From Magnetococcales bacterium (GTDB taxonomy: Bacteria > Pseudomonadota > Magnetococcia > Magnetococcales > Magnetaquicoccaceae), in NCBI GenBank assembly GCA_002753095.1, contig PDZU01000013.1, positions 1 through 53,615 on the forward strand: a stretch of DNA of 53,615 nt, read 5' to 3'. A program made the position numbers and the translations under genes. The notes below the pieces were generated by a model, which was not told where the DNA came from, made no database searches, and saw only the letters and a list, made by a program, of their open reading frames with translations. Positions 3,971 to 16,213 of this stretch are shown here, piece after piece. How positions within the stretch are numbered: position 1 is the first letter of the stretch; every line of letters starts with the position of its first letter.

Positions 3971-4048
3971 TGGCGCACTCGGAAGGATTCGAACCTCCGG
4001 CCTACTGGTTCGTAGCCAGTTGCTCTATCCGGGCTGAGCTACGAGTGC
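3971..4048 (-). tRNA. tRNA-Arg (anticodon ACG)
   Basis: On the minus strand a full cloverleaf can be drawn: acceptor GCACTCG pairing with CGAGTGC, anticodon stem ACTGG/CCAGT around loop CTACGAA (anticodon ACG, A34 read as inosine), T arm with GGTTCGAATCC, and an encoded 3' CCA. The 3' end faces the integrase/toxin block at 303-3740, the usual geometry for an element integrated into a tRNA gene. Confidence 0.95.
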
Positions 4049-7363: not shown

Positions 7364-7646
7364 GCAAGAGACCTAAAAAACGGAGAAAATGCGCACAAAT
7401 CGCGAAGAATGGCTACCCTGCCATAAAATTCCTCTATAGCGGATTGATTTTGTTGTAAATCGGCGTCATAATGACGAGAGGATCGTCAAAGGGGGGGATC
7501 CGCTTTATGCCACACTCTTGCGCCTGTTGTGCCACTCCCTCCCCTGTGCCCCATTCCGCATAAATTGATCCATCGCCCTTGTCCGCATCGAGCGTGCGGT
7601 GGAAACAAGATCCATGGCAGGCTCATAGGTAGAACTGTGGTATGCA

Positions 7647-9107
7647 ATGAATATAACAGCATCTTCGCCCCCCCATTTCCTGCTGTGCGACGACGAGGCC
7701 GGTGTGCTGCTCGGTGCCAGTCTGCTGTTGCGCCGTTCCGGCTTTGATCCGGTCTCCACCCTGCAGGACAGCCGTCAGGTACTTCCTTTCCTGGCCCAAA
7801 ATTCTGTGGCCATGGTCATGCTTGATTTGCACATGCCGCACATCGGCGGTCTGCAACTGCTTGGGGAAATCAAACAACTTTACCCTGATCTGCCCGTGGT
7901 GATCCTGACCGCCATGCAGGATGTAAAAATGGCCGTCGCCTGCATGAAAGAGGGGGCCATGGATTATCTGCTCAAGCCCATCGAAAAAGAGCGTCTGCTG
8001 GCCATCGCCGAGCAGACTAGGCAACTCTACTCCCTGCGGCGGCAGGTGGATACCTTGAAAGGGTATCTGCTCAACGATCCCAAACCGCATCAGGAGGCTT
8101 TTGCCGGTATTGTCACCAACAGCACGCGCATGCGTTCCATCTTCCAGTACATGGAGGCGATCGCCACCACCCGTGAACCGGTGTTGATTACCGGCGAAAC
8201 GGGCGTTGGCAAGGAGTCCATTGCGGCGGCCATGCACCATCTGAGCGGACGGAGCGGCGCCTTTGTTCCCGTCAATGTGGCCGGTCTGGATGATATGGTT
8301 TTTTCCGACACCCTGTTCGGGCACCGCAAGGGCGCCTATACCGGGGCCGATCAAAATCGGGATGGACAGATTGCCAAAGCGGTGGGCGGAACCCTCTTTC
8401 TCGACGAAATCGGTGATTTAAGCGAAACCAGCCAGGTCAAACTGCTGCGACTGTTACAGGAGAAAAAATATTTCCCGCTGGGTTCGGATATTGGCAAGCA
8501 TGCCGACATTTATGTGGTAGCCGCCACCAATCGGGCCATCAAGGAGCGTATCCTCAATGGCCATTTTCGCGCCGACCTCTATTATCGACTGGCGGGACAT
8601 CAGGTTCACCTGCCCCCGTTACGTGAAAGGGTGGAGGACATTGCCCTGTTGGTCAACCATTTTCTCCAGGATGCGGCCCGCTCGGTAGGCAAAGAGCCAC
8701 CCACGCCCACCCCGGAGCTTTTCTCTTTGCTCTCCAGTTACTCTTTTCCCGGCAATATCCGGGAGTTGCGCGCCATGGTCTTTGATGCTGTGGCGCAGCA
8801 TCGCCGGGGTGTTCTCTCCTTGCGCAGCTTCAAGGAACATATCCTCGCCACTCAGGGCTATCCTGATCCCACGGTACCGCCTCATGATGCGTTGGCGCAG
8901 TGCGGCCCTCAACTCTCCTGGCCGCATACCGCCCGCCCGCCCACCATCAAAGAGGCGGAAGAGTTTTTACTGCATAACGCCCTGCGTGCCAGCAAAGGCA
9001 ACCAAGGTGTGGCCGCCTCTTTGTTGGGCATCACCCGACAAGCTCTCAACCAGCGTTTGGCCCGTCGCAAAAAGGGACACGACGAGATGGATGCATCCTC
9101 CCCGTGA
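7647..9107 (+). CDS. Sigma54-dependent response regulator (NtrC/LuxO type)
   Basis: 486 residues in three domains. Receiver domain (1-125): acidic pocket DDE at 15-17, phospho-acceptor Asp60 in VMLDLHMP, Lys110 in LLKP. AAA+ domain (about 150-390): Walker A GETGVGKE (183-190), sigma54-contact loop GAYTGA (229-234, a GAFTGA variant), Walker B LFLDEIGD and an R-finger region. A Fis-type helix-turn-helix closes the protein (about 445-475). It should activate RNA polymerase-sigma54 when phosphorylated. No histidine kinase is nearby, so its input is unknown. A near-consensus sigma54 promoter and a structured RNA lie immediately downstream, which makes that RNA its most likely target. Confidence 0.92.
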   Translation: MNITASSPPHFLLCDDEAGVLLGASLLLRRSGFDPVSTLQDSRQVLPFLAQNSVAMVMLDLHMPHIGGLQLLGEIKQLYPDLPVVILTAMQDVKMAVACMKEGAMDYLLKPIEKERLLAIAEQTRQLYSLRRQVDTLKGYLLNDPKPHQEAFAGIVTNSTRMRSIFQYMEAIATTREPVLITGETGVGKESIAAAMHHLSGRSGAFVPVNVAGLDDMVFSDTLFGHRKGAYTGADQNRDGQIAKAVGGTLFLDEIGDLSETSQVKLLRLLQEKKYFPLGSDIGKHADIYVVAATNRAIKERILNGHFRADLYYRLAGHQVHLPPLRERVEDIALLVNHFLQDAARSVGKEPPTPTPELFSLLSSYSFPGNIRELRAMVFDAVAQHRRGVLSLRSFKEHILATQGYPDPTVPPHDALAQCGPQLSWPHTARPPTIKEAEEFLLHNALRASKGNQGVAASLLGITRQALNQRLARRKKGHDEMDASSP

Positions 9108-9130
9108 ATTCTTTGCCAGCCCAAAAAAAT

Positions 9131-9146
9131 TGGCACGAATGGTGCT
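9131..9146 (+). promoter_or_regulatory. Sigma54 (-24/-12) promoter
   Basis: TGGCACGAATGGTGCT matches the consensus TGGCACG-N4-TTGCW at every fixed position except one, with GG and GC at exact -24/-12 spacing. The predicted start is near 9157. It lies 24 bases after the stop of a sigma54 activator gene and points away from it into a region with no real open frame, so the transcript should be a separate non-coding RNA. Confidence 0.8.
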
Positions 9147-9156
9147 CATATAAAGG

Positions 9157-9462
9157 CAACAGCGGGTCATGATGGACGACCCAGAAAACAGCAAGATGTA
9201 GTCGGTTGGTGTTGTTACCGGAGCGCGTCGCTTGCCGACCCGGTGTACAGAAAAAGGGATGCCGGTTCTTTGGATCAGCGTCTCTGTGTCGGGCCGGTCA
9301 GAAGTACCCCCCTCTAGCTTCTGACCGGCTTGGCTAATCCTAAAAGTCTCAGGTTCCATGAACCTGCGCTCGCAAAGAAGAAACGGACCTCGCGGTCTGG
9401 ATCTTCCTGCCGGGCTGATCGGGAGCCCCCCCCCTCTAACTCCTGGTCGCCCGGCTTTTTTT
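9157..9462 (+). ncRNA. Structured regulatory RNA with twin C-rich loops
   Basis: A transcript of about 305 nt is predicted from the sigma54 promoter to a strong terminator. Hairpins seen: GGGTC/GACCC (9164-9182); a GTCGG/CCGAC arm further on; a perfect 12-bp stem 9293-9304/9318-9329; a 7-bp stem CAGGTTC/GAACCTG (9350-9366); and the terminator stem. The 12-bp hairpin loop (9305-9317) and the terminator loop (9426-9439) both expose CCCCCCTCTA, which could pair with G-rich ribosome sites. No frame longer than about 10 codons with a good ribosome site is present. It resembles Qrr or CrcZ RNAs in context (next to a sigma54 activator) but I recognise no Rfam family. Confidence 0.7.
9409..9462 (+). 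terminator. Strong terminator of the structured RNA
   Basis: GCCGGGC (9409-9415) pairs with GCCCGGC (9449-9455). The stem extends inward to about 16 bp with one bulge, holds a C9-containing loop, and is followed by seven T residues (9456-9462). Confidence 0.85.
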
Positions 9463-9575
9463 ATGCCCCGCGCACAAATCAAGTATTCCAATTATAAATC
9501 AATCACTTAACAAAAATGCGTTGATACTTTTCATCGGTCAAAGTGGCAGATGAAAAGCATCTGTCAAAGTGGCAT

Positions 9576-9742
9576 GGGGTCCAGGGGAGATTATCTCCCC
9601 TGGCGGGTGCAGGGCGGAGCCCTGCTTGTAATGTGCGGCGTTTTACAAAAGCAAATGCGCAGCATTTGCGCACGCCGCACAGATTTGTGCCCCGCAGGGG
9701 CACGCCTTGGGAGGGCGGATGCCCGACATGCACCGTGTTGCC
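9576..9742 (+). repeat. Composite palindromic repeat R1
   Basis: Full copy of the interspersed family: a GGGTCCAGGGG.. palindrome, a GGGTGCAGGGCGGAGCCCTGC hairpin split by its loop, then a nested hairpin (outer arms GTGCGGCG/CGCCGCAC, inner GCAAATGC/GCATTTGC with GCA loop, 9633-9680), then GTGCCCC-GCA-GGGGCAC, then GGGAGGGCG..CGCCCGAC-like ending. The long open frames across it are side effects of the repeat. Confidence 0.85.
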
Positions 9743-9898
9743 TTGTACGACCCGGCGCAAGAACCCAAAAAGAGTGCGCGCAAACCCCTGCAACATTCGA
9801 TAGAATTTATCTCGCATGTTGCACCTGCAGCAAATGTTTTATATCAACATGTTAAACCGAGCAATCCCCATATACCTTATCAAACGTTGCACCCTTTT

Positions 9899-10022
9899 TG
9901 TGCGAACGCAGCAAAAAGGCGCTGGGGGGGCTGGGGGGTATCTGCATTTTTTCTTGTGCGAACGCAGCAAAAAGGCGCTGGGGGGGGGGGCTGGGGGCGC
10001 TGGGGGGCATCTGTATTTTTTC
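9899..10022. repeat. Two-copy direct repeat with long G-tracts
   Basis: Copies 9899-9954 and 9955-10022 both start TGTGCGAACGCAGCAAAAAG and then carry G-runs before ATCTG.ATTTTTTCT. The second copy has G-runs of 11, 5 and 6 separated by 2-4 bases (9980-10006), enough for an intrastrand G-quadruplex on the plus strand. No gene is supportable between 9463 and 10298. Confidence 0.75.
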
Positions 10023-10066: not shown

Positions 10067-10262
10067 ACAACACGGTGCATGTCGGGCGTCCGCCCTCCCA
10101 AGGCGTGCCCCTGCGGGGCACAGATTTGGGCGCGCTGCGCAGATTTGGGCAAGCCCAAATCTGCTTCGGTGAAAGCGCGCCATTGCAGCAGGGCTCCGCC
10201 CTGCACCCGGCATGGCTCCGCCCTGCACCCGGCAGGGGCGGTGACCGCCCCTGCACCCCGCA
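10067..10262 (-). repeat. Composite palindromic repeat R2
   Basis: Reverse-oriented copy. Its nested hairpin (10139-10181 region) has a different stem, GCAGATTTGGGC/GCCCAAATCTGC inside GGCGCGC/GCGCGCC, on the same scaffold. The R1/R2 pair face each other around the G-tract repeat. Confidence 0.8.
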
Positions 10263-16137: not shown

Positions 16138-16213
16138 GTCCCCATCGTCTAGTGGCCTAGGACGCCGGCCTCTCACGCCGGCAACACGGGTTCGACTCCC
16201 GTTGGGGACGCCA
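16138..16213 (+). tRNA. tRNA-Glu (anticodon CTC)
   Basis: 76 nt with acceptor GTCCCCA/TGGGGAC, D arm, anticodon stem CCGGC/GCCGG around loop CTCTCAC (anticodon CTC), T arm with GGGTTCGACTCCC, and encoded CCA. A run of six T follows directly (16214-16219) and may terminate the transcript. Confidence 0.95.

Follow-up and report, generated by a model that had tools for sequence, protein, structure and literature searches.

A Tandem C-Loop RNA Family with a Sigma54-Type Promoter behind NtrC-Type Activator Genes of the Magnetococcales

Activator Gene and Its Leader

The window analyzed here is a 53,615-nucleotide stretch of a Magnetococcales genome (GenBank contig PDZU01000013.1), in which a gene for an NtrC-type response regulator is followed by a −24/−12 promoter element and a structured non-coding RNA (Table 1). 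The regulator is complete, comprising receiver, sigma54 AAA+, lid, and Fis-type helix-turn-helix (HTH) domains, and a GAYTGA loop (GAFTGA-type) and the aspartate of DLHMP were recognized by eye. A receiver, an AAA+ domain with a GAFTGA-type loop, and a Fis HTH are the features by which an NtrC-type sigma54 activator is identified. The closest relatives of the window genome belong to the Ca. Magnetaquicoccus group of the order Magnetococcales, which are UR-1, WMHbinv6 (WMH), HCHbin5 (HCH), nDJH8bin2, and a Umea MAG; the activator orthologues of five relatives are 77–86% identical to that of the window.

The preliminary description called this regulator an orphan, which holds for the branch formed by the window, UR-1, and WMH, but not for three congeners and the sister genus, where a GAF/PAS histidine kinase gene lies directly upstream of the activator. 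Since the kinase precedes the activator in most relatives, the orphan status is specific to that branch. The G-tract of the activator leader occupies an aligned position in the window (G7), UR-1 (G6), and WMH (G8), and the rest of the leader is weakly conserved. In the other three congeners (HCHbin5, nDJH8bin2, and the Umea MAG), a run of G6–7 forms the Shine-Dalgarno sequence of the activator, all six congeners thus carrying G6–8 in either the leader or the Shine-Dalgarno sequence of this gene. Elsewhere in the window, an int-alpA RNA (Rfam RF02996) was found at 2485–2554, and tRNA genes were located at 3974–4048 (−) and 16138–16210 (+). The int-alpA RNA near tRNA genes points to an element integrated within the first kilobases of the window.

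Table 1. Features of the activator–RNA locus, in window coordinates.
Feature	Position	Strand	Basis
TTGATT-17-CATAAT, a putative sigma70-type promoter for the activator	7444..7472	+	Recognized visually within a conserved stretch shared by window, UR-1, and WMH
Activator-leader G7 run, a candidate site for pairing with the C loops	7491..7497	+	Six G unchanged in the alignment of three species
NtrC-type sigma54 activator/response regulator, 486 aa	7647..9107	+	Pfam Response_reg, Sigma54_activat, AAA_lid_14, HTH_8
−24/−12 (sigma54-type) promoter, TGGCACGAATGGTGCT	9131..9146	+	11/12 consensus positions; 24 bases past the activator stop
Non-coding RNA, predicted full transcript, two modules	9157..9462 (306 nt)	+	Fold, conservation in six species, covariance-model matches
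Module 1 hairpin A	9255..9285	+	Predicted fold, module alignment, covariation
Module 1 hairpin B, loop C6 (9307–9312) then UCUA	9288..9334	+	Predicted fold, covariation
Small linker hairpin	9351..9365	+	Predicted fold
Module 2 hairpin A	9377..9406	+	Predicted fold, module alignment, covariation
Module 2 hairpin B and terminator stem, loop C9 (9426–9434) then UCUA	9409..9455	+	Predicted fold, covariation
T7 terminator tail, directly 3′ of GC-rich hairpin B2	9456..9462	+	Sequence

Promoter of the RNA

The earlier assignment of an NtrC-type activator gene with a sigma54-type promoter behind it was borne out by the domain content and by the consensus match. From the GG/GC spacing of this element, the transcript is expected to start near 9157. 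A TGG-N11-TG element was found ahead of the first C loop at all 26 array loci checked; the scan of these loci used a loose TGG...TG pattern, and therefore only the remaining promoter positions count as free evidence. The −24 box has C at its sixth base in 25 of the 26 loci and G or A at its seventh in 25 of them. The −12 box is TGCT in the window genus and mostly TGATA outside it (TGAT, not TGCW), which is unusual for sigma54. Six Ca. Magnetaquicoccus-group genomes contain the activator, and every one keeps both the promoter and an array of 2–4 modules, so that the −24/−12 site is lost in no close relative. The order of the parts in five relatives with an orthologous activator (activator, −24/−12 site, tandem array) is that of the window. 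The RNA is likely under sigma54 control, which we infer to be exerted through the neighbouring activator.

Clustered TTGCA/TGCAA pairs near the promoter, considered as enhancers, were not consistent and were set aside. A block of ~120 bases downstream of the array is kept in all six congeners (window 9789–9905; L047, L048, L049, L050, and L051). Its edges are the inverted repeats TGCAACRTTTGAT ... ATCAAAYGTTGCA, between which a third TTGCACC usually lies, and like TGCAA/GTTGCA dyads occur 3′ of several other activator paralogues (L026, L029, L033, L036, and L044). This block and the similar dyads are possibly enhancer sites of the activator family.

Structure of the RNA

The predicted transcript (9157–9465) folds with −132.9 kcal/mol and a z-score of −4.8, and none of 100 shuffles was as good, in agreement with the structured non-coding RNA ending in a hairpin and seven T that had been described. 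The predicted elements are hairpins A1 and B1, a small middle hairpin, A2, and B2, together with a weaker 5′ domain. The preliminary description had overlooked that a single module is repeated in tandem in this RNA. In the module, hairpin A is followed after a few bases by hairpin B with a 15–18 bp stem and a C6–C9-UCUA loop, both B loops of the window being of this form. Hairpin B of module 2 is invariant among the window, UR-1, and WMH. The loop motif is new, as the preliminary description had it. An Rfam scan of the RNA, at gathering and relaxed thresholds, gave no credible family. Interruptions break up the sense frames across the RNA, the open stretches between them are not preserved in UR-1 and WMH, and stops in these two genomes also disrupt a 174-aa antisense frame (8967–9491). 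A protein-coding array was thus ruled out on either strand. The preliminary description had likewise found no credible open frame in the transcript. REP-like repeats, GGGTCCAGGGG...CCCCTGG and CAGGGC...GCCCTG, lie around the array (window 9575–9625 and 10160–10240), and in L051 also directly 5′ of the promoter.

Covariation and Distribution of the RNA Family

The array consists of two modules in the window, UR-1, and WMH, three in the Umea MAG, and four in HCHbin5 and nDJH8bin2, and the copy number ranges over 2–6 across the family. In the genus alignment of 19 modules, 95% of the cells pair and both sides have changed at 14 of the 28 pairs, to which neither shuffles nor slid registers come close. 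The order-wide alignment exhibited compensatory double changes at all 25 pairs, with 331 doubly changed cells as compared to 89 in shuffles, a count that leans towards the model because the alignment was fitted to it. The C-tract, mostly followed by UC, is retained in nearly all modules read, and the stems are wholly different. On this covariation, we regard the existence of an RNA family as close to certain.

A covariance model built from the window genus (R1) matched only within that genus. Reading of the regions downstream of activator paralogues revealed a two-hairpin C-loop unit with very different stem sequence in the sister genus and in two further families, denoted f8 and f12. A second model (R2) was then made of nine sister-genus modules only, and recovered window-genus modules in a 69-kb search with E values of 0.004–0.4; the window's own two modules gave 0.1 and 0.25, which are weak alone and exact in position. 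This constitutes an independent test of membership in the wider family, since R2 contains no window-genus input. R2 matched the modules of f8, f12, and a further family, f13, more strongly than those of the window genus. Taken together, the loci read and the covariance searches, which the preliminary description had suggested, place the family in 26 of 48 Magnetococcales genomes, namely 6/7 of the window genus, 9/11 of the sister genus, 7/8 of f13, 3/5 of f8, and 1/1 of f12. Genomes of the window genus, the sister genus, and f13 that lack the RNA are each at most 76% complete. No model match was obtained in ~350 other Pseudomonadota genomes, with only 12 candidates scored per genome. Activator homologues in Nitrospirota, Desulfobacterota, and others had no array next to them at the 23 loci that were read. 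The covarying family spans five GTDB-type families of the Magnetococcales. For these magnetotactic cocci, we found no regulatory RNA of the C-loop kind described.

The gene order in the sister genus is GAF/PAS histidine kinase, activator, array, and convergent rnhB. Genome G011 has lost both kinase and activator, yet its array remains next to rnhB, and in f13 the RNA adjoins an oadB-like gene (named by eye) rather than the activator. In f13 and G011, the RNA is thus remote from any activator. The array-bearing activators fall into two separate paralogous clades (f8 sequences left out), which indicates either that the coupling of RNA and activator arose at least twice or that the RNA outlived gene turnover.

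There is usually one array per genome. Stray single modules occur in nDJH8bin2 (G003; L101–L104, L231, L232, and L233), some without an activator nearby; they were located just 5′ of a phasin-like gene, just after the same gene, ~2 kb behind another kinase–activator pair, and 3′ of a second phasin-like frame. It may be that the module is mobile or serves in cis. Two genomes have a second, separate C-loop locus, L225 (G028 C30) with its own TGGCACAGTTTGTG element and L226 (G024 C84).

Hfq, ProQ, and Candidate Targets

Hfq (PF17209) was detected in 0 of 18 genomes of the window's family (f1) and in 13 of 13 tested genomes of other Magnetococcales families, and its apparent loss is thus placed in the f1 lineage. 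ProQ, a possible replacement chaperone, was not detected in the window's family. The exposure of C-tracts in the loops suggests that they pair with G-tracts without a chaperone, in the manner of 6C/B11, RepG, and LhrC. Such pairing is our best guess at what the loops do, and the RNA probably silences messages with G runs.

Predicted duplexes between the C loops and the activator G-tract range from −16 to −23 kcal/mol and beat most shuffles in five of the six congeners. Outside the window genus, most leaders of activator and kinase genes have no G-tract, and a universal feedback on these leaders was rejected, as it was not seen there. Feedback on the activator is a possibility of that lineage. 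In most Magnetococcales genomes, G-rich Shine-Dalgarno patterns exceed the reversed control several-fold. The pattern GAGGGGGG-N-ATG is no commoner in RNA-bearing than in RNA-less genomes, nor commoner than GGGGGGAG-N-ATG, by which a genome-wide G-tract Shine-Dalgarno enrichment in RNA-bearing genomes was discarded. Sites of TAGAGGGGG are few, and no target common to the window, UR-1, and WMH was seen among them. Target prediction from C-tracts was reported to be unreliable in G-rich genomes in a study of B11 (PMC12395582).

Proposed Mechanism and Alternative Explanations

We propose a two-component, sigma54-controlled antisense RNA whose C loops act on G-tracts without Hfq, a model that we judge moderately probable as a whole. 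A signal would be received by the GAF/PAS histidine kinase, which adjoins the activator in most relatives and was lost or moved in the window's branch, and the phosphorylated activator would then stimulate sigma54 RNA polymerase at 9131–9146. The resulting RNA would present two (elsewhere up to six) rigid hairpins, each exposing ~6–10 cytosines in its loop, and these loops would pair without Hfq to G-tracts in mRNA leaders or Shine-Dalgarno regions to block translation. The several loops of one RNA may serve as several pairing heads or give rise to several processed RNAs. A likely target in the window genus would be the message of the activator itself, leading to a feedback loop as in luxO–Qrr. 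Several findings speak against this model, namely the mostly missing G-tracts in leaders of other genera, the lack of a genome-wide or shared target signal, the TGAT form of the −12 box outside the window genus, the two clades of array-bearing activators, and the arrays of f13 and G011 far from any activator. The window's family, in which neither Hfq nor ProQ was detected, offers a natural test of chaperone-free small RNA action, and the RNA is also a test of how a sigma54 two-component switch was coupled to such an RNA. A wider reading is put forward only tentatively, namely that this order-wide, multi-headed C-loop RNA is a main post-transcriptional regulator of the Hfq/ProQ-less family under a sigma54 two-component switch, or that the arrays titrate an undescribed C-tract-binding protein.

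That the RNA is a protein sponge, whose 2–6 C-tract loops on stiff stems titrate a non-Hfq RNA-binding protein (such as a cold-shock or KH protein or Rho), appears rather unlikely. The primary site of Rho prefers YC-rich RNA. CsrB/RsmZ and CrcZ have a similar multivalent, tandem design governed by a two-component system, the copy number varies as that of a sponge would, and the failure to find a common mRNA target is consistent with titration; however, no such protein was identified, the loops consist of a C-tract and UC rather than a structured motif, and titration does not account for the G-tracts present in all six activator leaders.

It is improbable that the RNA does not act in trans and that the array is a terminator chain or a set of REP-like repeats behind an activator gene. 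Hairpin B does resemble an intrinsic terminator, REP-like repeats share the intergenic region of the array, and the stray modules of nDJH8bin2 partly lack a nearby activator. Against this, each module has two covarying hairpins that keep the loop sequence as the stems change, a promoter element is present at every array, genomes usually have a single array, and the array persists where the activator is lost.

A CsrB/RsmZ-type decoy for CsrA is very improbable. The sequence ACANGGAYGU, which we take to be close to the CsrA consensus, occurs in f12 and in seven transcripts of the sister genus, six of them having it at about +21 to +31, and ANGGA is in excess in HCH. The GGA counts of the window (3), UR-1 (2), and WMH (2) compare, however, with 2.4–3.3 in shuffles, only 1–2 of them are unpaired, and the conserved loops are without GGA, so that a CsrA decoy in the window, with its GGA motifs at shuffle level, is not supported. 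ACANGGAYGU sits in a conserved early hairpin (L105, L107, L116, L039, L149, and L151) that is not found in the window genus.

A strict CrcZ or Qrr, acting by Hfq titration through A-rich motifs or by Hfq-dependent pairing, is hardly conceivable; the preliminary description of a Qrr/CrcZ-like unit stands for the layout of activator, sigma54 promoter, RNA, and terminator, but not for the mechanism, since Hfq was undetected in 18/18 family genomes, which takes out both modes barring an unrecognizably divergent Hfq, and the RNA has no Rfam match.

Comparison with Known Systems

In the CbrB–CrcZ/CrcY systems of Pseudomonas and Azotobacter, an NtrC-type activator drives the RpoN promoter of a non-coding RNA (PMC4063720), and the window likewise has, at the level of sequence, an RpoN-type promoter adjoining an NtrC-type regulator gene. 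CrcZ titrates Hfq via A-rich motifs, whereas the conserved motif here is C-rich and Hfq is not detectable. LuxO–Qrr of Vibrio is alike in combining a sigma54 activator with a small RNA and in that the activator message may be subject to feedback. Qrr acts with Hfq (Lenz 2004, as cited in PMC10162802), the window RNA differs in having tandem modules in one transcript, and the Qrr covariance model did not match it at the gathering threshold or in relaxed scans.

LhrC1-5 of Listeria is a multicopy (five) small RNA that depends wholly on a two-component system, carries UCCC motifs, dispenses with Hfq, and has several regions able to recognize targets (PMC4132741). Its copies, unlike the modules here, are separate genes with their own LisR-dependent promoters in a Gram-positive host, and their sequence and fold are different. 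RepG of Helicobacter pylori pairs a C/U-rich terminator loop with a homopolymeric G-repeat in a leader, and its gene adjoins an orphan response regulator gene (PMC8295292). It has a single pairing loop and no tandem modules, sigma54 control is not reported for it there, and no homology to the window RNA was detected.

The 6C/B11 RNAs of mycobacteria and actinobacteria share with the window RNA the C-tract hairpin loops and hosts without known Hfq or ProQ. Their C loops or C-loop terminator were reported to pair with ribosome binding sites that contain G-tracts (PMC10470900, PMC12395582), and hairpin loops of about six or more cytosines, which characterize them, are also present in the window RNA. 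The Rfam 6C model did not match this RNA at any score, relaxed scans included; it belongs to another phylum and differs in its tandem modules, the second hairpin A, and the sigma54-type promoter beside an activator gene. The window RNA, unusual in its control and its setting, belongs to a new RNA family, and the mechanism proposed for it is of a known kind.
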